Of a stretch of DNA of 64,000 bases, positions 26,973-38,424 are shown piece by piece (position 1 is the stretch's first letter; each line of letters begins with the position of its first letter). The position numbers and the translations under genes were made by a program. Source of the DNA: a bacterium (GTDB lineage: Bacteria; Hydrothermota; Tepidihabitantia; Tepidihabitantales; Tepidihabitantaceae); contig DATJQV010000012.1 in assembly GCA_035505375.1 (NCBI GenBank), forward strand, positions 1 to 64,000, given 5' to 3'. The notes beneath the pieces are model-generated. The model was not told the DNA's origin. It did no database searches and saw nothing but the letters and a program-made list of their open reading frames with translations.

Positions 26973-29012
26973 CTACCTTCTCTTCATCCTCGCCTTCCTC
27001 GCCGTCTTCCACTCCTCATCATCAATCTGCTGCCGCGCCTGCTTGATCCTGTCGCGCAGCGCTGCCGCCTTCTCGAACTCAAGCAGCGCCGCGGCCTGTT
27101 CCATCTCTCGCTGAAGCCTGGACAGCAAGGCAACCTTGTCCTCTTCCTCGGCACCAAGGTCGTTCGCCTCATCGCCTATCAGCTCACCCTTTGCGTCGGC
27201 AACCGATGTCGTCAGACGCACCTGGTCGATTGACTTCTGGATCGAACGCGGTTCGATGCCGTGCGCTGCATTGTAATCGAGCTGCTTCTGCCGCCGCCGG
27301 TCGATCTCCTTGAGCGCATTCCGAATGGAGCGCGTCACGACGTCGGCGTAGAGAATCACCTCGCCGCTGAGATGGCGGGCCGCCCGGCCCGAGGTCTGGA
27401 TGATCGACCGCTCATCACGCAGGAAACCCTCCTTGTCCGCGTCAAGAATCACTACCAGCGACACCTCGGGCAGGTCAAGCCCCTCGCGCAACAGGTTGAT
27501 GCCCACCAGGACGTCGAACTCACCCAGCCGCAACTGCCGCAGGATTTCTACCCGTTCAATCGCGCCGATCTCCGAGTGAAGGTAGCGCACCTTCAGCCCC
27601 ATCTCGGTCAGGTACTCGGCAAGGTCCTCGGCCATACGCTTGGTCAGTGTCGTGACCAGCACTCGCTCCTTCAGCTTCACCCGGTTCCTGACCTCGGCAA
27701 TCAGGTCGTCCACCTGCCCCTTGGTCGGCCTGATGGTCATCTTCGGGTCAACCAGTCCGGTCGGCCTGACTATCAACTCCGCTACGCGACCCTGGCTTAC
27801 CGTCGCCTCATACGGCCCGGGCGTGGCCGACGTGAACACCGCCTGGTTGACCAGCATGCTGAACTCATCGAACCTCAGCGGTCGGTTATCAAGGCACGAC
27901 GGCAGCCTGAACCCATAGTCAACCAGCGTCTGCTTGCGTACCCGGTCCCCGTTATACATCCCCTGAACCTGCGGCACAGACGTGTGGGACTCGTCCATCA
28001 CCATCAGGTAGTCGGCCGGGAAGTAGTCGAGCAACGTGTACGGCCTCTCCCCTGCCTTCTTGCCCAGCAGGTGGCGCGAGTAGTTCTCGATGCCCGGGCA
28101 GTACCCGAACTCGCGCATCATCTCAAGGTCGAACTTCGTGCGGGTCTTGATACGCTGGGCTTCAAGCAGCTTACCCTGCGCCTCAAACTCGGCCACCCGC
28201 GCAGCCAATTCTTGCTCAATCGTCACCTCGGCGGCGGTAATCTGCTGCTCGGTCGTGATGAACTGCTTGGCCGGGTACATCACCATCCGTGGCTTCCGCT
28301 CAATCATGTCCCCGGAGACGACGTCGAATACCGTCAGCCGGCCAATCACGCTGCCGTCGAACTCCACCCGTACGCCGTAGTCGCGATGCGATGGGTGAAT
28401 GTCCACCACGTCCCCGCGGACGCGGAACGTCGAACGCTTCAGGTCAACGTCGTTCCGCGTGTACTGCAGCTTCACCAGTTCCTCGAGCAACCGCTCCCGG
28501 TCCATATCCTTGCCGATTTCAACCGGCAGAATCGAGTTGCGGAACTCCCACGGCTCGCCGAGGTTGTAGATGCACGAAACCGAGGCGACCACGACAACGT
28601 CCCGCCGCTCGACCAAAGCCGACGTGGCCCGCAACCGCAGCCGCTCAATCTCCTCGTTGATGGAAGCGTCCTTCTCGATGTACAGGTCGTGCTCGGGCAC
28701 ATACGCCTCTGGCTGGTAGTAGTCGTAGTACGACACGAAGTACTCGACCGCGTTTTCCGGGAAGAACCCCTTGAACTCGCCGTAGAGCTGCGCGGCGAGG
28801 GTCTTGTTGTGCGACATGATGATGGTCGGTCGGTTCAGCCGCTCGATGACGTTCGCCATCGTGTACGTCTTCCCCGACCCGGTCACACCCAGCAAAGTTG
28901 CATACTTTGCTCCGTCCTGGACGAACCGGCACAACTCCTCTATGGCCTGCGGCTGGTCACCACTGGGTTTGAATGGCGCAACCAGCTTGAATCTGTCTGT
29001 CTGCTCAATCAC
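26973..29012 (-). CDS. uvrB: UvrABC excinuclease subunit B
   Basis: The damage-verification helicase of nucleotide excision repair. 679 residues. Walker A is GVTGSGKTYTMANV near residue 40; the beta-hairpin region is YYDYYQPEAYVPEHDLYIEKDASINEEI. Helicase motifs V and VI are in LLREGLDLPEVSLVVILDAD and QTSGRAARHLSGEVILYAD. A C-terminal UVR domain binds UvrC. The start is a GTG six bases after the -10 box at 29019-29024, so the message is predicted to be leaderless. Confidence 0.97.
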   Translation of the reverse strand: MIEQTDRFKLVAPFKPSGDQPQAIEELCRFVQDGAKYATLLGVTGSGKTYTMANVIERLNRPTIIMSHNKTLAAQLYGEFKGFFPENAVEYFVSYYDYYQPEAYVPEHDLYIEKDASINEEIERLRLRATSALVERRDVVVVASVSCIYNLGEPWEFRNSILPVEIGKDMDRERLLEELVKLQYTRNDVDLKRSTFRVRGDVVDIHPSHRDYGVRVEFDGSVIGRLTVFDVVSGDMIERKPRMVMYPAKQFITTEQQITAAEVTIEQELAARVAEFEAQGKLLEAQRIKTRTKFDLEMMREFGYCPGIENYSRHLLGKKAGERPYTLLDYFPADYLMVMDESHTSVPQVQGMYNGDRVRKQTLVDYGFRLPSCLDNRPLRFDEFSMLVNQAVFTSATPGPYEATVSQGRVAELIVRPTGLVDPKMTIRPTKGQVDDLIAEVRNRVKLKERVLVTTLTKRMAEDLAEYLTEMGLKVRYLHSEIGAIERVEILRQLRLGEFDVLVGINLLREGLDLPEVSLVVILDADKEGFLRDERSIIQTSGRAARHLSGEVILYADVVTRSIRNALKEIDRRRQKQLDYNAAHGIEPRSIQKSIDQVRLTTSVADAKGELIGDEANDLGAEEEDKVALLSRLQREMEQAAALLEFEKAAALRDRIKQARQQIDDEEWKTARKARMKRR

Positions 29013-29018
29013 GACGAG

Positions 29019-29046
29019 ATTCTAGGAGTATGCTAGGCTAGGTCAA
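29019..29046 (-). promoter_or_regulatory. Promoter of uvrB
   Basis: Minus strand: TTGACC (29041-29046), 16-base spacer, TAGAAT (29019-29024), six bases to the GTG start. No LexA-type operator was recognised. Confidence 0.65.
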
Positions 29047-29106
29047 GCCGCCGGTAACGAACTGGAACCACCGAGAAGAGCGAACGCCCACGCCGAAGTC
29101 CTTAAC

Positions 29107-29188
29107 TCAATCCCTTGATCTCTCTATCCCTCTAGCCCTTCCGTTCTTGGCCTTTGCCTTCTGACCTTGACTAGCGCGTCAGACGCGC
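29107..29188. repeat. Octamer/heptad block and a GC hairpin in the uvrB-SEFIR gap
   Basis: Octamers TCAATCCC, TTGATCTC, TCTATCCC, TCTAGCCC (29107-29138) are followed by heptad-like words to 29164. Next comes a GCGCG/CGCGC hairpin with loop TCAGA (29174-29188) and a TTTT run on the plus side. Nothing else is seen in 29047-29301. Confidence 0.6.
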
Positions 29189-29301
29189 AGTGTTTTGCTT
29201 CACCTTTGAACTCGCCCAGGCGTCGTAAACAATGTCCCACTGCGTCCCGGAAATCGCTCCAAGGAACGTGACCCGTAACCCCACGGCGGATTCTCTTCGA
29301 G

Positions 29302-31029
29302 TTACTCGAATCGGTGCTTGACGAGAAGTCTCAGGTAGGGCAGTTCCTCGCTAAGCGTCCTTATGTTCAGCACGTAGTTCGTGATGCCTCGTTTCGTGTC
29401 TCTTGCGATGTAACTCATCCGGATCAGGGCATCCAGGAACGGCCTAGCGAACCGAATCCCCGGTCTCTTTGTTCGAGCCCTGCCGAGGGCCTGTCGTAGG
29501 TGCCGTTCGTCGAACCTTCCTCTTGAGTCCGCACATCGCCAAGCGGCGAGCAGGACGTCTGCCATCAAAGGGTCTGTGACTAGGGTAGGTGCAGTCTCAT
29601 TGGGTTCAAGAGCCATGTGACCTAGTCGAGTACGCTTCAGGTACGCCTCCCCCAGAAGGTAGTCCACAGCTTGATCGAATTGAGCCTCGGAGTGCTGGAA
29701 GCGGAGTGCGCTGCGAACGCTGGCTGTGGCTATACCGTTTCGTCTCCTTGAGGAAGGTAATCTCCTCAGTCTGTCGACGATGACATACAGCACTAGGGCT
29801 GCGGTTTCATCCATGGCATACTTCCTCGGAGGCACATCTCGTCTAAGAAACTCGAGGTCGGCCCACAAACCGGGCTGGTGTTGGTCAATTAGCCGAACCA
29901 AGGCTTCGCCGTCTAGTACATGTGTATTTGCGCGCAAGCTGGGCGCGGCGATGATTTCATCTAGCTTGCCGATCGCGGCTGCGGTGATCTCTGACGTTGT
30001 CACAACTACCACTTGGTTCAGGAACACGGTGTCAGTACTGCCGCCGGGCTGGTGCACTCTGGCGAATGCCTCCATTACCTGCTTCGCAACTGTCAATATG
30101 CTGTTCGGACCGACCACGGTGCCTACGATGACCCCCGTCCTGGCGATGACCCCGACCCACGCGTGGTGTCCGAACGGGGACGAGGTACGACAGAGCAGAT
30201 CAACTCCACGTTCGTCGGCTCCATGGACGTCCCACACAGAGTCGCAGAAGCTGCCAAACAGCTTGGCCAGCACGCTCTTTCTGAGCAAGGCTTCGGAGGT
30301 GATCGCTAGGAGAGTGGCCAACTTGTCACTGGGAGTGCGCGATCGCGCAGGGAGGGGACTGGAGAAGCCCGGCCCAGCTGCGTCTGCTCGCTCGGACACC
30401 AACTGCGCCGATAAGACGGGGGTGTCTGCAAAGTCCCCCTTCCGCGTCAGTGCCTCCAAGGCAACGCGAACGCGTGGCGGCTTGGGTGTGATTGGTCCGA
30501 GCGGTGACATCGGCGTCTCAGGCTGATTTGTGATGCGGCGATAGAGGCGGTCATAGCCCTCATGTCTGGTTAGCGAGTACCACTGGGCTCCACTCAGGAT
30601 ATCGGGTATGCACGCGAGGTCTGCGTCTCGGAACACGACTGGCACGAACTTGTCATTCTTGCCCTCAGCGTCATATATCTCCTGCGAGATAATTGCGCCT
30701 TCCCACTTCGCGCCCTTGCCGACGCCTGCCTTCTCCCTCAGCTCGAATCTCTCCAGATAATCCCTAGTGCAGATAACAATGACGAAGTCTGCGTCTCGTA
30801 TCTGACGCTCGCACCACCGAGGCCAGCCCTCCGGGGGGGCCGGTTCGTACTGGTCTATCCGGCAGTCGACTCCCTCACGACGCAGTTGCTCTGAGAGAGC
30901 CCACACTAGTTCTAGATGTTCGGGCGAATCATGGCTGTAGCTGACGAAGACGCGTCGCGGCCGCGGGACTGCGCGGGATTCGACTGCCTTCATGCGGTTT
31001 TCGTCTGCCCGAGCGTGTTGCCTCGCCAA
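29302..31029 (-). CDS. SEFIR-domain protein with nuclease-like and winged-helix regions, probable defence protein
   Basis: About 575 residues. Residues 26-170 form a SEFIR (TIR-related) domain: RRVFVSYSHDSPEHLELVWALSEQL-type start, PPEGWPRWCERQIRDADFVIVICT and GAKWEGAIISQEIY. Residues about 230-400 resemble a restriction-endonuclease fold (ADERGVDLLCR, then WVGVIARTG). The usual Q-x-K catalytic strand reads IAR, so catalysis is doubtful. Two winged-helix-like modules fill the C-terminus. The start is unclear: TTG 31029 or ATG 30993; neither has a good ribosome site. Base composition is visibly less GC-rich than the flanks, suggesting transfer. The next gene upstream encodes another TIR-like protein. 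Confidence 0.75.
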   Translation of the reverse strand: MARQHARADENRMKAVESRAVPRPRRVFVSYSHDSPEHLELVWALSEQLRREGVDCRIDQYEPAPPEGWPRWCERQIRDADFVIVICTRDYLERFELREKAGVGKGAKWEGAIISQEIYDAEGKNDKFVPVVFRDADLACIPDILSGAQWYSLTRHEGYDRLYRRITNQPETPMSPLGPITPKPPRVRVALEALTRKGDFADTPVLSAQLVSERADAAGPGFSSPLPARSRTPSDKLATLLAITSEALLRKSVLAKLFGSFCDSVWDVHGADERGVDLLCRTSSPFGHHAWVGVIARTGVIVGTVVGPNSILTVAKQVMEAFARVHQPGGSTDTVFLNQVVVVTTSEITAAAIGKLDEIIAAPSLRANTHVLDGEALVRLIDQHQPGLWADLEFLRRDVPPRKYAMDETAALVLYVIVDRLRRLPSSRRRNGIATASVRSALRFQHSEAQFDQAVDYLLGEAYLKRTRLGHMALEPNETAPTLVTDPLMADVLLAAWRCADSRGRFDERHLRQALGRARTKRPGIRFARPFLDALIRMSYIARDTKRGITNYVLNIRTLSEELPYLRLLVKHRFE

Positions 31030-31175
31030 ATCGATAAAGGACTAGATGGACAACGCGCTGTGGGTCGTGACATGTCAAATGGGCAAGCGGAATTGGAACG
31101 TGACCCCGAAGCCCCTACCCCACACGCTTCTGACTGGGAACCGAGAGAAGCAGCCCTCCTTCTACCCAAGCGTCG

Positions 31176-32300
31176 CTACGGGGTTTCTAGGTCACTCTGG
31201 GGACTTGCTGGACCCGCTGTCGGGTAGTCGAAGGACACCTTGTCCTCTCCGATTTTGATCTCTGTTCCCGAGCTGACGGCGACCTCGAAATCATCGTATC
31301 CTCTCAACATCTGCTGAGCCTGGCCGGTGACAGGGCCTGTGTCGCATTTGTAGGCGACCACAATGCCTATGTGCATTCGTGACATTCTCTGGAGCTTGTC
31401 GGTCACGTCCGTAAGCTCCGTTTCTGTGCGTTCGGCCAAGTACGAGCCCTTCCTGTGCTCAGACAGGCCGCGCTTTACGGCTTCCCTCCTACCTTCGAGG
31501 TCTAAGCGAGCACGAGAGGCTCGATAGGCAAGTACTGGTATGTCCTCCAAGATGGACGACAGTTGTGAGGCCTTGTCCACTTTCGCGACAAACGCGTATC
31601 CCTTCTGATGGACGCCCGAGTCGAAGCCGACAAAGCCCGTATCAGCGATGACGTCGTCTAGGAACCACTGGCTGTCCTTCGGTGTGAATCCGGCCAGCTC
31701 CAAGCAGCGCATCACCCTGCGGTCCGACCACTGGTTCTGATCGCCCACTGCTGGCTTGCCTTCGGCTAACCGCATGGCGTCCTTGATCGCCCTGTTCAAC
31801 TCTGAAGCCATGTTGGCAGGTGTATACTTCACGGTGTCATAGCTCTGGATGTTGAAAGCCAGGGTCAAGTTCTCCTTCTGCAGAGGTATGATGTGCTTGT
31901 TCATCGCAGTCATGAGTCCGTACTCGTAGTAGACATTGGGGTTCGGCACAGACGTCGTACCGACGATGTTGTCGTCAAGTATGACGAGGCAGAACCGTGA
32001 CTCGATGATTCTTCCGCATATCTTGGTGCAGAATATGTCCTGCCCGTAGGCTCGCTCTCTGACGGCGATGACGGGCTCAACGCCCTGTTTTGTCAGCTTC
32101 TCAGAGATCAGCTCCAGGAGTGGATCAAGCTCTGGCTCAGAAGGAGAGGCAATGAAACAGGACTTCGATGCGCCATACAACTTGCCGCATGGGTGGTTCT
32201 TGCGAATGAAGCACCACGCATTTGGTCCAAAGGAAGGGGGGCTCGGAGACTCCCACGAATAGGCATATCGCCGGTCCCGACTGAAGGACTTCCAACTCAC
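31176..32300 (-). CDS. TIR-like / nucleoside-deoxyribosyltransferase-like domain protein, probable defence protein
   Basis: 374 residues. Residues about 45-175 resemble TIR-like NAD or nucleotide hydrolase folds: CFIASPSEPELDPLLELI, then ICGRIIESRFCLVILDD and NPNVYYEYGLMTAMNKHIIPL, where the Glu of YYEYG is the candidate catalytic residue. The remaining 200 residues are of unknown fold, with a helical segment rich in Arg and Glu. The start is the GTG at 32300, five bases after AAGGAGG; a GTG at 32306 lies inside that site. It is 146 bases upstream of the SEFIR gene on the same strand and, like it, has atypical composition. The two may form one defence module. Confidence 0.72.
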   Translation of the reverse strand: MSWKSFSRDRRYAYSWESPSPPSFGPNAWCFIRKNHPCGKLYGASKSCFIASPSEPELDPLLELISEKLTKQGVEPVIAVRERAYGQDIFCTKICGRIIESRFCLVILDDNIVGTTSVPNPNVYYEYGLMTAMNKHIIPLQKENLTLAFNIQSYDTVKYTPANMASELNRAIKDAMRLAEGKPAVGDQNQWSDRRVMRCLELAGFTPKDSQWFLDDVIADTGFVGFDSGVHQKGYAFVAKVDKASQLSSILEDIPVLAYRASRARLDLEGRREAVKRGLSEHRKGSYLAERTETELTDVTDKLQRMSRMHIGIVVAYKCDTGPVTGQAQQMLRGYDDFEVAVSSGTEIKIGEDKVSFDYPTAGPASPQSDLETP

Positions 32301-32442
32301 GGCCACCTCCTTGCGGACGATTCTGACGAGATAAATGCACTTCCCAGGCTTCGAACGTACGTCATTGGAGGAAGAGGCTCGGCTTCCACTCGTCTAGGAT
32401 AGGTCAGTTACAGCCACTGTCAAGCAACGGCGCGGGCAGCGT

Positions 32443-33174
32443 TCAGTCGAGTTCGCTCTTGCGTTCCATGTCGGCGAACAGGGCGATGACTGCCTGCTTC
32501 ATTTTGGTGAACGGCTCGGGCAGGAGCCCGTGCTCAGCGGCCCAGTTGTCGAGCTTGGCTATTGCTTTGGCGCGCCAGACCGGCCGGGCTTTGCGCGTGC
32601 GGCGCAGGGCGCCGAAGACTCTGCTGCCGTATGCACGGAGGTACGTCGCCAGCGGGTCTTTCCAGCCAAGCCGTGACTCGTTCATAACTTCGTTGAACGT
32701 CCGATGTAATCTGCGCTCCCACGCTTCGGCCCTGGCGCGCTTCAGCGCCTGCCGCACTCGCTTCTCGATGTCCTGCTCGGTCCGAACATGCTGACCGGCC
32801 TTCAGCCTGAGGCCGATGTCATAGTTCTCTGCCCGATCCTGCTGAAGAGGCGGCAACTCCGCGGTCGCATCCAGCAACGCCTGCTTCGCACGCTGTTCGA
32901 GAATCGTCGGCCGCGAGGCGTACTCGTCGAGCACGTCCAGGACTGCGCCGAGGTTCTTGCCACAGACCCGCAGGTAGTCGAGAATGAAGGATAGTGATTG
33001 CTGGCCGGCCTTGCCCCGCTCGAACCGGCTCACTGCCTGCTGCCATCCGCGATTGGTGCCGCCCAACCGGGCGGCCAGTTGCACCTGGGTCAGACCGGCC
33101 TCACGCCGAATCTGGGCTAGCCTCCGGCCAAGCACCCGGCACAACTCGTCCAGCTCAGAGTCACCGTTTTCCAT
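32443..33174 (-). CDS. Xre-family helix-turn-helix protein
   Basis: 243 residues. The N-terminal 75 form an Xre/Cro helix-turn-helix (LGRRLAQIRREAGLTQVQLAARLGG, then QQAVSRFERGKAGQ and SFILDYLRVCGKNLG). The rest is a helical, Arg-rich domain of unknown type, with a Trp-containing segment (ARPVWRAKAIAKLDNWAAEHGL). It could regulate the adjacent SEFIR/TIR genes or the array region; there is no direct evidence. The ATG has no clear ribosome site, and a weak promoter lies 20 bases upstream. Confidence 0.82.
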   Translation of the reverse strand: MENGDSELDELCRVLGRRLAQIRREAGLTQVQLAARLGGTNRGWQQAVSRFERGKAGQQSLSFILDYLRVCGKNLGAVLDVLDEYASRPTILEQRAKQALLDATAELPPLQQDRAENYDIGLRLKAGQHVRTEQDIEKRVRQALKRARAEAWERRLHRTFNEVMNESRLGWKDPLATYLRAYGSRVFGALRRTRKARPVWRAKAIAKLDNWAAEHGLLPEPFTKMKQAVIALFADMERKSELD

Positions 33175-33192
33175 GGTCTCGCCGATAGGAGA

Positions 33193-33221
33193 ATACTACA
33201 AATGGAGCTCTAGCTCATCAA
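33193..33221 (-). promoter_or_regulatory. Candidate promoter of the Xre gene
   Basis: Minus strand: TTGATG (33216-33221), 17-base spacer, TAGTAT (33193-33198), 18 bases to the ATG. A partly palindromic AT-rich stretch (TAACAATTAGTTA) at 33248-33260 could be an operator. Both are weak readings. Confidence 0.3.
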
Positions 33222-33307
33222 GCCCTTTCGCATCCTAACTTCGTCACTAACAATTAGTTATTAGACCTTACTGAATTTCCCCCATCCCGTCTCACCCACT
33301 CTTTGGC

Positions 33308-33655
33308 AAGCTCTCTCCCAAGCTCTTTGGTAAGGCCTCTGCCAAGCTCTCTGGCAAGGTCTCTGCCAAGCTCTCCGGCAAGGTCTCTGCCAAGCTCTCT
33401 ACCAAGGTCTTTCCCAAGCTCACTGGTAAGGTCTCTGCCAAGCTCCTTGGCAAGGTCTCTGCGAAGCTCTCTGCCAAGGTCTCTGGCAAGGACTCCCCCA
33501 GGCTCTTTGGTAGGGTCTCTGCCAAGCTCCCTGGCAAGGTCTCTCCTAAGCTCTCTGCCAGGCTCTCTGGTAAGGTCTCTCCCAAGCTCTCTGGCAAGCT
33601 CATTCCCAAGTTCCCTGCCAAGCTCCTTCCCCAACTCCGTGACAAGCTCTTTCGC
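33308..33655. repeat. 12-bp-period array 2 (29 units, 348 bp)
   Basis: Twenty-nine 12-mers alternate AAGCTCTCTGGC and AAGGTCTCTGCC. GGCA and TGCC alternate every 12 bases, so adjacent units can pair as short hairpins. It lies in the divergent gap between the Xre gene and the RelE gene. All frames are open, but the predicted peptides are 4-residue repeats with no start signals; it is not read as a gene. Confidence 0.9.
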
Positions 33656-33702
33656 TCGCGCTCGGAAGTTGTTGCCTCAGCGCAGCAGAAGGCGGGCGCC
33701 GG

Positions 33703-33813
33703 TCAGCGTCGGCTGTTGATGACTACGACCTTGCCGAGTTCACGGCTGCCGCGGGGACTCGCGACTGAATAGCAGTAGATGCGGCTTGGCAATCCAGCGA
33801 CGTTCGACCTGCA
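33703..33813 (-). pseudogene. Detached fragment of a sorting-tail gene end
   Basis: The minus-strand frame reads SNVAGLPSRIYCYSVASPRG and then ELGKVVVIN before its stop. It closely matches the last 30 residues of the 34483-37047 protein (VPSGVYCYSVASPNG and LGKVVVVN). At DNA level 33720-33790 is about three-quarters identical to 34495-34565. It is a direct duplicate of that gene's 3' end without any upstream gene body. The RelE/Phd pair lies between the two copies. Confidence 0.75.
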
Positions 33814-33826
33814 GGGAGTCGAGGCA

Positions 33827-33855
33827 TTGACCGCACGCGGGAATATGGCTATCAT
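33827..33855 (+). promoter_or_regulatory. Promoter of the RelE/Phd module
   Basis: TTGACC (33827-33832), 17-base spacer, TATCAT (33850-33855), nine bases to the ATG at 33865; predicted leaderless. Confidence 0.6.
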
Positions 33856-33864
33856 CTGGCCAGA

Positions 33865-34176
33865 ATGAATTACCGCGTCGCTTTCGCGCCGGAGGCGGTC
33901 AAGGACTTTCGCAACCTGTCGGCCAACACGCGGGCGGAAGTCAGGGACGCGGTCAACCGACACCTGATGCATGAGCCGACGCGGCTGAGCCGAAGCCGCA
34001 TCAAGCGACTGCGGGGCACCCGCAAGCCTCAGTATCGCCTGCGCGTCGGCGATGTCCGCGTCTTCTACGACGTACATGCGGACCGCGTGGAAGTGCTGGC
34101 TATCGTTGAGAAATCGAAAGCTGCGGAATGGCTTGAGAGAACTGGAGAATTCGATGAGGAAAGTAGCGCTGGCTGA
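33865..34176 (+). CDS. RelE/ParE-family toxin
   Basis: 103 residues. RelE/ParE pattern: YRVAFAPEAVKDFRNLSANTRAEVRDAV, then KRLRGTRKPQYRLRVGDVRVFYDV and VEVLAIVEKSKAAEWL. The basic central strand and the C-terminal Lys/Glu region fit an mRNA-cleaving toxin of this fold. It is the first gene of the pair (toxin before antitoxin) and overlaps the antitoxin by 23 bases. Confidence 0.9.
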   Translation: MNYRVAFAPEAVKDFRNLSANTRAEVRDAVNRHLMHEPTRLSRSRIKRLRGTRKPQYRLRVGDVRVFYDVHADRVEVLAIVEKSKAAEWLERTGEFDEESSAG

Positions 34177-34468
34177 AGTGAGGGATCACCTCTCGGAATA
34201 CCTGAATGAGGCAGCCGAAGAGGAAGTCGTCATCACTCGGCATGGCCGACCCGCAGGCGTGCTGATTGGCTTTGCCGACGAGGATGATTGGTTCGACTAC
34301 CGGCTGGAGAATGACCCGCGTTTCGTCGCGCGCATCGCCGAGGCGCGGGCAAGTCTGAGGGCCGGGAAGGCCGTCCCGTGGGAAGACGTGCAGACAGAGG
34401 TCGGGACGGAGCCGGCTGAGTTCGTCGTCGCGGACCGGCCGGCTCGACGGCGCTCGCGCCGAAGCTAG
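34154..34468 (+). CDS. Phd/YefM-family antitoxin
   Basis: 104 residues. The N-terminal Phd/YefM fold (MRKVALAEVRDHLSEYLNEA, then EEEVVITRHGRPAGVLIGFAD) binds DNA. The C-terminal part, acidic and then Arg-rich, should wrap the toxin. The start is the ATG at 34154 with GGAG six bases upstream, inside the end of the toxin gene. It ends 14 bases before the convergent propeller gene. Confidence 0.88.
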   Translation: MRKVALAEVRDHLSEYLNEAAEEEVVITRHGRPAGVLIGFADEDDWFDYRLENDPRFVARIAEARASLRAGKAVPWEDVQTEVGTEPAEFVVADRPARRRSRRS

Positions 34469-34482
34469 CCGCCGAACGGGCC

Positions 34483-37047
34483 TTAACGGTTCACGACTAC
34501 GACCTTGCCAAGGTCGCGGTTGCCGTTGGGACTCGCGACCGAGTAGCAGTAGACGCCACTCGGCACATGTGAGACATTCCATCGCCACACGGCAGAATTG
34601 ACTCGCTTGCTGTCCTGAACCAGACGGCCGGTGTTGTCGCGCACCACGACCCGGCTGCCGGGGACAAGGCGCTCGAAGACCATGTTCTGTCCCTGTCGGA
34701 ACGCGAGCACACCCGCGTGGCTTCGCCCTGACTTGCGTTCGCTGCTGACGCCGGTCGCGGTCGAGCCTATCCTGAGTCCCGCGCCGAAGCTCGTGACCCA
34801 CAGAGCACTAGTGTCGTATGGGCTGTAGAAGACCCGTTCCGGATGGCGGAACGGATAGCTATTTGCCAGGCCGAACGTAGGATTCCCGGAACGCAGGTTC
34901 TGGCAGTACCAGAGCCCGTTGACCTCGGTTGTCAGATACATCTCATTGGAATCGCGCGGACTCACGGTGCAGGAGCCGACGCGGTCGAGGCTGTTGATGC
35001 GGGTCCAGTTCGAGCCGCGGTCAGTGGTTCGGTACAGGCCGCCGAGACCGTTTGGCGGTCCGCCCCAGCCGCTGAACACGCAGCCGTACCAAGTGTTCTG
35101 GAGACTGTCATACGGGTCTACGACAAGGTCCATTGTCCAATAGTCCATGCCTGCGGCAGACTTGTCCTGCCAGGTCTGGCCCGAGTCGGTGCTCGCGAAG
35201 ACGCCGGAACTGGCGGTGAAGTGGGAACTCGAATCGATGCGGCCCGAGTATGAAGCGAGTACGGTGCCGTCGTTGAGCACGCGGATGTTGAACGGATGCC
35301 CCTGCGTGCGCGGGGGCGCTGTGCAGTGGGTCCAGCTTGAGGTCGCGCCGTTCTGAAGGTCGTTGGTGACCCAGATGCCGCCCTGCCCGTTGTTGTGGTT
35401 GGCAACCGCCGCATACATCCGGTTCGGCCGATTGGGGTCGAGTTCAATCCAGATAACCGGCTTGGCGAAGTTGTGAAGCGTATTCCAGCTCGCGCCGCGG
35501 TCGGTCGAGAACTTGACGTTACCGTTGCCACCATCAATCCGCGCGTCAGTCAGGTACGTGCTCTGGTAGAGGTCGTGCACCGAAGAGATGGCCGCATAGA
35601 GCACGTGGGTCTGGGGATGCTCGACGAGGCGGTAGACAGAGTTCAGGTTGAGGTTCGGGATGATGGCCCACGTCATGCCTGCGTCGGTGGAGTGGATGCC
35701 GTTGATGTCAGTGGACCCGACGAACACGCTATCCTGATTGAGCCAGAGCACGTCCCAGCAGGAAGTGTTCTCAAGGCCTACGCCTTGATAGAACCGGCCG
35801 GGCGTGATGTTGCTGCCCTTTGAGTTCTGGGTCGCGGCAGACACGTAGCACTGACGCCAGTTCTGTCCGTCGTCGGACGAAAGGTGGATGAACCCGTAGT
35901 CACTGAATGCTAGCAGACTCGGATTGTTGGCCGCAACTGAGAAGCCCATGGCGCACTCGGCGTATCCCCAGCCTCGGTCCCCGCCAGAGCCGCACCAGCC
36001 GGTGTAGATATTCTGGTTGCCCGCAGCCAAGAGAGTCTCGACCCAGGTGTCGCCGGCGGTCGTTGTCTTGAAGACAGTCGGGGCACCGGCAGAGCCGCTA
36101 CCCGCCAGATAGGCCGTGCTCGTGTCGTTCTGAGCCATCGCGACGAAGAACGGATAGTCAGTGCCAATCTGGATGCCCTTCTCCTTCAGGGTCCAAGTGA
36201 AGGAAAGGGGTCGAGGATTCAAGGATTCAAGGATTCCAGCGCCCGACACTGGACCACTAGTCCACTGGACCACTTGACCACTCGTTGAGTAGATTCCCTT
36301 CGCGATATTCCAGTAGTCACTCCCGAAGATCCCCACATAGATGTTCGCCGTATCGGCCGCCACTCCGTAGAACCTGACCGTCCCGCCCTGTTTCGCTCCG
36401 GCGAAGGAAAGCATTCCCTGGCCTGCGGGCAGGCCGGTGTATGACTGCATGTTGAACGTGCTGCCGCCGTCGGTGGAAACCAATAACCCGGCGTTGGTGC
36501 CGACGTAGATGTTGGGCAGATCCCAGAACGTGCCCGCGATGTAGGCCCCGCCAAGCATCGGGCTTGTGTACTTCAGGGCGAAGCTGCTGCCACCGTTGGA
36601 CGAGTAGTAGAGGTGAGTGTAATCGACGACGAGCAGATTGGTCGTGTGGTTCGGGTCGACCGCCATCTCCCAGCACGCGCCACCGGTCGGGTCGCCTATA
36701 AGTGCCGACCAAGAAGTGCCGCCGTCGGTCGTCTTGACCGGCGTCATGCCGTCGTTCGTGTAGTCCACGCTGTACCGCACCTGCGGGTCAGATGTGAACT
36801 GGACCCCGACGTGATTGCCGCCCTGAATCACGCTGAAGTGCTCGATGTTCCAGGTGTGGCCGGTGTCGACCGAATGGAAAAGCTCGCTCATGTCGCAGCC
36901 CGCGTACATCTCCGCGGGATTGGACGGGTTGAATACGGGGTTGTAAAGCGCGCCACCGCCGCCGATACCTCTGGACGCCCAGTTGGCCGGCTGGGCCAGC
37001 GCCGCGGCACCAAACGCCAGAACCGTCGCAAGCACTCTCAATCGCAT
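34483..37047 (-). CDS. Large secreted beta-propeller protein (sialidase/VPS10-like repeats) with sorting tail
   Basis: 854 residues. A signal peptide (MRLRVLATVLAFGAAALAQP) is followed by many Asp-box repeats of the S-x-D-x-G-x-x-W type (TTDGGTSW, SSDDGQNW, STDAGMTW, STDRGASW, STDSGQTW, TTDRGSNW), enough for two propellers. The layout recalls GH74 xyloglucanases and other Asp-box proteins; enzymatic activity is unproven. The tail (VVRDNTGRLV and VPSGVYCYSVASPNG) is sorting-domain-like. The start at 37047 is set by GGAGG seven bases before the ATG; an in-frame extension to 37344 has no signal. An octamer repeat block (36211-36283) is inserted in frame. Confidence 0.85.
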   Translation of the reverse strand: MRLRVLATVLAFGAAALAQPANWASRGIGGGGALYNPVFNPSNPAEMYAGCDMSELFHSVDTGHTWNIEHFSVIQGGNHVGVQFTSDPQVRYSVDYTNDGMTPVKTTDGGTSWSALIGDPTGGACWEMAVDPNHTTNLLVVDYTHLYYSSNGGSSFALKYTSPMLGGAYIAGTFWDLPNIYVGTNAGLLVSTDGGSTFNMQSYTGLPAGQGMLSFAGAKQGGTVRFYGVAADTANIYVGIFGSDYWNIAKGIYSTSGQVVQWTSGPVSGAGILESLNPRPLSFTWTLKEKGIQIGTDYPFFVAMAQNDTSTAYLAGSGSAGAPTVFKTTTAGDTWVETLLAAGNQNIYTGWCGSGGDRGWGYAECAMGFSVAANNPSLLAFSDYGFIHLSSDDGQNWRQCYVSAATQNSKGSNITPGRFYQGVGLENTSCWDVLWLNQDSVFVGSTDINGIHSTDAGMTWAIIPNLNLNSVYRLVEHPQTHVLYAAISSVHDLYQSTYLTDARIDGGNGNVKFSTDRGASWNTLHNFAKPVIWIELDPNRPNRMYAAVANHNNGQGGIWVTNDLQNGATSSWTHCTAPPRTQGHPFNIRVLNDGTVLASYSGRIDSSSHFTASSGVFASTDSGQTWQDKSAAGMDYWTMDLVVDPYDSLQNTWYGCVFSGWGGPPNGLGGLYRTTDRGSNWTRINSLDRVGSCTVSPRDSNEMYLTTEVNGLWYCQNLRSGNPTFGLANSYPFRHPERVFYSPYDTSALWVTSFGAGLRIGSTATGVSSERKSGRSHAGVLAFRQGQNMVFERLVPGSRVVVRDNTGRLVQDSKRVNSAVWRWNVSHVPSGVYCYSVASPNGNRDLGKVVVVNR
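36211..36283 (-). repeat. In-frame octamer repeats inside the propeller gene
   Basis: GATTCAAG, GATTCAAG, GATTCCAG near 36216-36239, then CACTGGAC, CACTAGTC, CACTGGAC, CACTTGAC, CACTCGTT (36247-36286). They encode a segment (VVQWTSGPVSGAGILESLNP) without propeller motifs. Confidence 0.75.
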
Positions 37048-37151
37048 CTCACTTCCTCCTGTCCGTACTGAATGACACGTGCCGGAGATTCTCACCAGAG
37101 GGAAGATTCTAAGCCGAGCGCCTTGACGGTCAAGCGCCGGGTGCGCCTGCG

Positions 37152-37179
37152 TTGACTTCGTTCCAGAGCCGCATATGCT
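37152..37179 (+). promoter_or_regulatory. Promoter of the MFS gene
   Basis: TTGACT (37152-37157), 16-base spacer, TATGCT (37174-37179), six bases to the ATG at 37186; predicted leaderless. Confidence 0.6.
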
Positions 37180-37185
37180 GGCCCC

Positions 37186-38424
37186 ATGGAAAACGCTGGA
37201 GCAACGGTCATGGAACAGCAATCGTTCCGGGTCTACGGCTATCGGTGGATCGTTCTGCTGAGCTTCATGTTCATCGTGGGCATGAACCAATTGCTCTGGA
37301 TAACATTCGCGCCGATAACCGGCGCCGCCGCTCAGTTCTACCATACAACCGACCTCGTCATCGGACTGCTCTCCATGAGCTTCATGGCGGTCTACATTGT
37401 GCTTGTCATTCCTTCAGCCTGGATGATAGACACGCTCGGATTCCGCACCGCGGTCGGCATCGGCGCCATCCTGACCGCGATCTTCGCGTTGACGCGCGGC
37501 CTTTTCGCGACCAGCTTCCCCCTGGTTCTCGTCTCCCAAATCGGCATCGCGATGGGCCAGCCGCTCGTGGTAGGAGCCGTAACCAAGGTCGCCGCCACGT
37601 GGTTTCCGGTCAAGGAACGCGCCACCGCCTCCGGGCTCGGAACTCTCGCTGTCTACCTCGGCGTCCTTGTCGGCATGCTCATCACGCCCGCGCTCGCGGT
37701 CAGGTACGGCATGGCGTCGATGCTCCTCATCTACGGAATCGTCACGGTCGTCTCCGCGCTGTGCTTCTTCATCTTCGCCAAAGGGAAGCCGGCAACGCCG
37801 CCCTGCCCGGCCGGCCATGACGTCCGAGTGCTGATGTTCGACGGGCTGAAACAGATGCTGCGCCAGCGAGACTTCCTGCTGCTGCTCGCGATTTTCTTCG
37901 TCGGCCTGGGGATGTTCAACGGAGTATCGACGTGGATTGAGGACATTGTCCGGCCACGTGGGTTCTCGATTTCGCAGGCTGGTTTGCTGGGCGGTTTAAT
38001 GCTCATCGGCGGCATCATCGGCGCAGTTATCCTGCCCATCCTCTCGGACAAGGCCCGTCGACGCAAGCCGTACATCATACTGTCGCTCTGCGGCCTGATT
38101 CCCGGCCTGGCGGGAATGGCGTTCGCGACCAGCTATTGGCTGCTGCTGATTTCGGGCTTCCTGTTCGGGTTCTTCCTGCTCAGCTCCGGACCGATTGGAT
38201 TCCAGTTCGGCGCCGAACTTACACACCCGGCGCCGGAAGGCACGTCCAACAGCCTGCTGCTGCTGATGGGTCAGGTCTCAGGCCTGATATTCATCTTCGG
38301 CATGGACGCGCTCAAGTCCCCGGCGACCGGCGCGATGACCGGCTCCTTGCTGGCCCTGCTGGGACTGACTGTTCTCTGCGTCCTCCTTGCCACCTTCATC
38401 AAAGAACGCCCTTTGACCTGCTAA
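37186..38424 (+). CDS. Major facilitator superfamily transporter, FLVCR-like
   Basis: 412 residues with about 12 membrane helices. The first helices (YRWIVLLSFMFIVGMNQLLWITFAPI-type, then MSFMAVYIVLVIPSAWMIDTLG) resemble the FLVCR branch of the family, whose animal members move haem, choline or related compounds. The bacterial substrate is unknown. The start is ATG 37186, six bases after the -10 box, so leaderless translation is expected. The glycine-rich protein gene follows 12 bases after it and may share the transcript. Confidence 0.88.
   Translation: MENAGATVMEQQSFRVYGYRWIVLLSFMFIVGMNQLLWITFAPITGAAAQFYHTTDLVIGLLSMSFMAVYIVLVIPSAWMIDTLGFRTAVGIGAILTAIFALTRGLFATSFPLVLVSQIGIAMGQPLVVGAVTKVAATWFPVKERATASGLGTLAVYLGVLVGMLITPALAVRYGMASMLLIYGIVTVVSALCFFIFAKGKPATPPCPAGHDVRVLMFDGLKQMLRQRDFLLLLAIFFVGLGMFNGVSTWIEDIVRPRGFSISQAGLLGGLMLIGGIIGAVILPILSDKARRRKPYIILSLCGLIPGLAGMAFATSYWLLLISGFLFGFFLLSSGPIGFQFGAELTHPAPEGTSNSLLLLMGQVSGLIFIFGMDALKSPATGAMTGSLLALLGLTVLCVLLATFIKERPLTC

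Follow-up and report, generated by a model that had tools for sequence, protein, structure and literature searches.

Neighbouring SEFIR and TIR/NDT-fold proteins on a lineage-specific bacterial islet are candidate abortive-infection effectors

Two adjacent minus-strand genes in the window, i.e., the whole 64,000-nucleotide stretch of DNA analyzed, encode a SEFIR protein (P1) and a TIR/NDT-fold protein (P2). The original prediction of such a gene pair at this locus was confirmed by Pfam and PADLOC matches. In our preferred reading, which we judge to be evenly balanced between right and wrong, P1 and P2 are two self-contained effectors of the TIR superfamily that act by abortive infection and are carried on a horizontally gained islet. 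The C-terminal part of P1, which combines a nuclease fold lacking its lysine with a helical tail, would probably sense infection, and the SEFIR domain would then consume NAD+. P2, as a putative TIR/NDT-type N-glycosidase, would probably also deplete NAD+ or a nucleotide, and each protein would halt phage by shutting down the infected cell. The two genes are co-oriented and probably co-transcribed, and may be expressed under or beside an Xre regulator.

In the direction of transcription, the minus-strand genes are ordered Xre regulator, P2, P1, and uvrB. The Xre-type (HTH_31) regulator gene (32443–33174; Pfam HTH_31, 1.6e-8) lies upstream of P2 (31176–32306; 376 aa), and P1 (29302–31029; 575 aa) is followed downstream by uvrB (26973–29012). 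Translation of P2 probably starts at the GTG at 32300, five bases after a GGAGG, and a promoter-like TTGACA-16-TATCCT, recognized by consensus match only, is located upstream of the gene on the same strand (32396–32423). The spacer between P2 and P1 (31030–31175, minus strand) spans 146 bp, or approximately 180 bp if P1 begins at its first ATG (30993). The 146-bp spacer yielded neither a promoter-like nor a terminator-like match, and it is therefore plausible that P2 and P1 are carried on a single transcript. Beyond the regulator gene lie an imperfect 12/24-bp tandem repeat array (33299–33653; TRF: 12.5 copies of 24 bp, 79% matches) and, on the plus strand, overlapping genes for a ParE/RelE-type toxin and a Phd-type antitoxin (33865–34468; Pfam ParE_toxin 4.9e-7, PhdYeFM_antitox 3.7e-11). 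All three accompanying features, i.e., the regulator, the array, and the toxin-antitoxin pair, had been proposed previously and were recovered by the Pfam and TRF searches. The array contains open frames on both strands, which would encode the repetitive peptides LARELGRD and LPSSLARS.

Comparison with other genomes delineated a lineage-specific segment of approximately 5.4 kb (29055–34482) that contains P1, P2, the Xre regulator, the repeat array, and the toxin-antitoxin pair. In the same-genus genome G118, uvrB is followed within approximately 40 bp by the end of a homologue of the window gene at 34483–37344 (74% protein identity); the segment is thus absent from G118. Similarity to G118 and to two other genomes (G114 and G115) beside uvrB ends at approximately 29027–29054. 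On sequence comparison, the simplest reading is that the segment was inserted in the lineage of the window. The arrangement in G118, as a single genome, would also accommodate a deletion on its side, although G114 and G115 also differ at the place adjacent to uvrB. Both genes had been described as deviating in composition from their neighbours; this holds clearly for P2, which is AT-rich (GC 0.559; the window averages 0.616 with an sd of 0.019 per kb), but the departure of P1 is mild (0.587). The Xre and toxin-antitoxin genes have a GC content typical of the window. Since both P1 and P2 are encoded on a segment that a same-genus genome lacks, a role in defense is likely. A 77-nt direct repeat (82%; 33715–33791 and 34489–34565) was also observed, which repeats the sequence for the C-terminal tail encoded at 34483–37344 and may have been left behind by another gene of this kind or by the insertion event.

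P1 comprises a SEFIR domain (residues 25–190), a degenerate PD-(D/E)XK/Mrr-like domain (residues ~237–395), and a C-terminal helical region (residues ~405–575). In animals, SEFIR domains are found in IL-17 receptor adaptors. The protein matched both SEFIR (1.9e-15) and TIR_2 (3.9e-15) in Pfam; its SEFIR domain aligned by sequence with a solved prokaryotic SEFIR (7e-11) and was predicted at pLDDT >90, with Z scores of 19.6 and 16.0 to SEFIR structures. An alignment of 78 SEFIR sequences showed no variation at F28, S30, Y31, D59, and W72, and 77 of the sequences carry the candidate catalytic residue Glu110. The PADLOC bSEFIR model was matched at 3.5e-53, with P1 residues 13–197 corresponding to model positions 32–215 of 412. 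The N-terminus of P1 therefore fits this model, including the invariant residues and Glu110, whereas the rest of the model is not matched by P1, which carries the degenerate Mrr-like domain instead. The single-gene SEFIR system has been catalogued as acting through NAD+ depletion and abortive infection (PMC12322248).

For the nuclease-like domain, searches returned just two relatives, and our comparison comprises these and P1. A Deinococcus NACHT-like protein (L013), itself a sub-threshold match to Mrr_cat, aligns through its N-terminus with P1 residues ~245–393 (25%, E 4e-3), and a protein of G1193 is the second relative (2e-4). P1 retains the Asp and the HG..E.G.D motif of the Mrr-type domain of the Deinococcus protein, but has Arg in place of the catalytic Lys and Ile in place of Gln; where the two relatives read QLK and VAK, P1 reads IAR. 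The domains also differ in context, that of the Deinococcus protein being placed in front of a STAND NTPase and that of P1 being fused behind SEFIR. P1 therefore departs from the active Mrr-type signature D...(E/Q)xK, with IAR in place of the (E/Q)xK part, and the loss of this residue postulated in the original prediction stands as far as three sequences show. In the P1 model, which is of low confidence here, the order of secondary structure elements (H237–258, E278, E289, E300, H310, E339) is that of PD-(D/E)XK folds, i.e., helix, three strands, helix, strand. Replacement of Lys by Arg is not proof that this part of P1 acts as a sensor, and the C-terminus is modelled at low confidence. Searches of viral contigs with single sequences and profiles returned no close relative of the P1 C-terminus. 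Even as a stand-alone protein, P1 is an example of SEFIR joined to a restriction nuclease domain that looks inactive.

P2 matched the Pfam family CAP12-PCTIR_TIR (PF10137) at 9.6e-6, with a score of 26.0 bits that is marginally above the cut-off of 24.7, and had no match in PADLOC or NCBIfam. Its structure prediction drew solely on distant viral TIR sequences; the C-terminal half is unreliable, and the mean pLDDT of 56 compares with ~70 for residues 45–183. The closest folds were the CMP N-glycosidase MilB (Z 13.9) and DNPH1 (Z ~12), and NDT and DNPH1 were also the top rows in Foldseek. The TIR domains of SPARTA and SARM1 followed at Z ~11–12, just under the N-glycosidases MilB, DNPH1, and NDT (Z 12–14). 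The model thus points to a TIR/NDT N-glycosidase fold, which does not tell the substrate. With these matches and those of P1, structure prediction bore out the TIR-like folds anticipated for both proteins. P2 likewise retains the catalytic glutamate proposed for it: the candidate residue, Glu128, lies within the motif NPNVYYEYG and is kept in all relatives. P2 resembles CAP12/Pycsar TIR proteins (PF10137; PycTIR, Cap12) in its predicted TIR/NDT fold and in having a Glu on the helix that follows the NPNV motif, but differs in its borderline score and in an extra set of four Cys residues. PF10137-type PycTIR is a NADase that is activated by its sensor domain (PMC11224242). No partner cyclase (CD-NTase or PycC) was detected among the 53 predicted proteins of the window (PADLOC, 1e-5), no SAVED, STING, or CNBD domain was found, and the C-terminal domain of P2 matched neither a Pfam nor a PDB family.

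P2 belongs to a rare four-Cys subfamily that current defense catalogues miss. A search of approximately 1,300 genomes from several phyla found four full relatives: in G425 (33%, 2e-32), G769 and G948 (36–37%, 3e-24 and 4e-23), and G1271 (3.5e-120 with the family profile). These relatives score below the PF10137 cut-off. The five-way alignment contains four invariant Cys residues (C32, C40, C93, and C97), which suggest a metal site, in addition to Glu128. C50 was also considered as an invariant position and rejected, as it is replaced by Ser in G1271. Similarity between P2 and its relatives is secure only over residues ~19–211; the C-termini gave one-on-one E values of 7e-4 to 0.06, too marginal to count as homology. 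P2 and its relatives had no match in plasmids and phages, and searches of viral contigs with P2, using single sequences and profiles, recovered only distant TIR/NDT domains.

The relatives of P2 occur in varied settings. No gene for a TIR or SEFIR protein lies next to those in G425 and G1271, and the locus in G948 is truncated by the end of its contig. In G769 (L147, 2925–8527), a GmrSD gene, four TIR genes, a gene of 160 aa, and the P2 relative are encoded in one direction, the P2 relative being the last gene after the four-TIR cluster, and a REP/IS200-like transposase gene stands on either side of the cluster, the two copies being near-identical. One of the TIR genes matched ThsB in PADLOC (2.8e-57) and another matched ThsB_TIR in Pfam (1e-19), while the remaining two encode general TIR_2 proteins. 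A PADLOC scan of surrounding genes detected no ThsA.

The pairing of P1 and P2 did not recur. Among 84,980 species genomes, none of the 80 best-matching SEFIR loci contained a P2-type gene (flanks up to 6 kb), and the C-terminus of P1, including the Mrr-like domain, was absent from the same loci. Conversely, no SEFIR gene was found in G425, G769, and G948, the three P2-relative genomes searched. Across 147 genomes of the phylum of the window, full-length P1 and P2 were each found here only. Hence the P1–P2 pair is a single instance. The proposal that the two genes form a defense module is thereby not sustained: they do not co-occur elsewhere in the genomes searched, yet both have TIR-like folds. 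We regard them as neighbours rather than an obligate pair, and a conserved two-gene module is not supported. The C-termini of the 80 best SEFIR proteins are varied, often containing STAND NTPases and TPRs; any one of NB-ARC, TPR_12, and AAA_22 was matched by at most 13 of 68 SEFIR members, and AAA_16 by 18 of 68. Such varied, sensor-like C-termini fit stand-alone sensor-effectors, consistent with our preferred reading.

Some observations sit less well with two independent effectors. The fold of P2 is nearest to nucleotide N-glycosidases (MilB and DNPH1), so NADase activity is not implied, and the P2 relative in the G769 TIR cluster would suit a relay better than a stand-alone effector. In a relay resembling Thoeris, the SEFIR domain of P1 would act as a ThsB stand-in that turns NAD+ into an ADP-ribose-type signal, and this signal would bind the C-terminal or Cys-bearing part of P2 and activate it. 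We consider this doubtful, though the strongest of the alternatives. The shared strand of P2 and P1, and a spacer that gave no promoter or terminator match, would suit it, as would the G769 cluster, the one piece of evidence in this direction, with its P2 relative placed last after four TIR genes, GmrSD in front, and no ThsA recognized nearby. Thoeris systems are also known in which several ThsB genes may share one effector (PMC12578639) and in which different ADP-ribose signals drive different effector types (PMC12847820). P1 is a TIR-superfamily protein, and at least one TIR gene of the G769 cluster is clearly of ThsB type; however, P1 is a SEFIR protein rather than ThsB, neither P1 nor P2 matched ThsB in PADLOC at E up to 1, and no SIR2-SLOG, macro-TM, or other ThsA was recognized in the window (PADLOC, 1e-5) or near the G769 cluster. 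Further against a relay, the SEFIR/P2 pair was observed once only, P2 relatives occur without TIR neighbours (G425 and G1271) and in genomes without SEFIR (G425, G769, and G948), and the lack of reliable similarity between the C-termini of P2 and its relatives leaves a shared ligand-binding domain unproven. The wider proposition, that TIR or SEFIR signal makers serve a four-Cys TIR/NDT N-glycosidase effector and that P1–P2 and the G769 cluster are two versions of this arrangement, is slightly more doubtful still. If P2-type proteins do respond to a signal produced by TIR or SEFIR enzymes, Thoeris-like immunity would gain a further class of effector, and SEFIR domains would acquire a possible signal-making role in bacteria.

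It is also conceivable, but unlikely, that P2 is a nucleotide or nucleoside N-glycosidase of the MilB/DNPH1/NDT kind, acting to deplete (d)NMPs or to process modified nucleotides, and has no NADase activity. The ranking of MilB and DNPH1 ahead of TIR domains, and of NDT and DNPH1 at the top in Foldseek, would favour this, but Pfam places P2 just over the cut-off in the CAP12/Pycsar TIR family, and Z gaps of 1–2 on a model of this mean pLDDT cannot separate NDT from TIR. Least probable in our estimate is that the islet is decaying or cryptic and has no present defense function; its occurrence as a single copy in the genus and the loss of Lys from the nuclease-like domain of P1 are compatible with decay, but the frames of 575 and 376 aa are intact and both proteins retain a candidate catalytic Glu.

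Related genes were seen at other loci. In G1193 (L149, 1–2866), the relative of the P1 nuclease-like domain is encoded directly downstream of a TIR/NDT-like gene with the motif NPNVFFEVG, i.e., in the same order as P2 and P1, but without SEFIR. A more distant P2 relative in G920 (L159, 7857–8810), with a CKIC motif and PNPNVMLELG, closes an apparent type III CRISPR-Cas gene cluster, the Cas names being assigned by reading of the proteins. The genome of the window itself encodes, on contig C57 (L002, 1435–2550), a protein that joins a guanylate kinase domain to an NDT/TIR-like domain bearing the motif NPNVFYETG.
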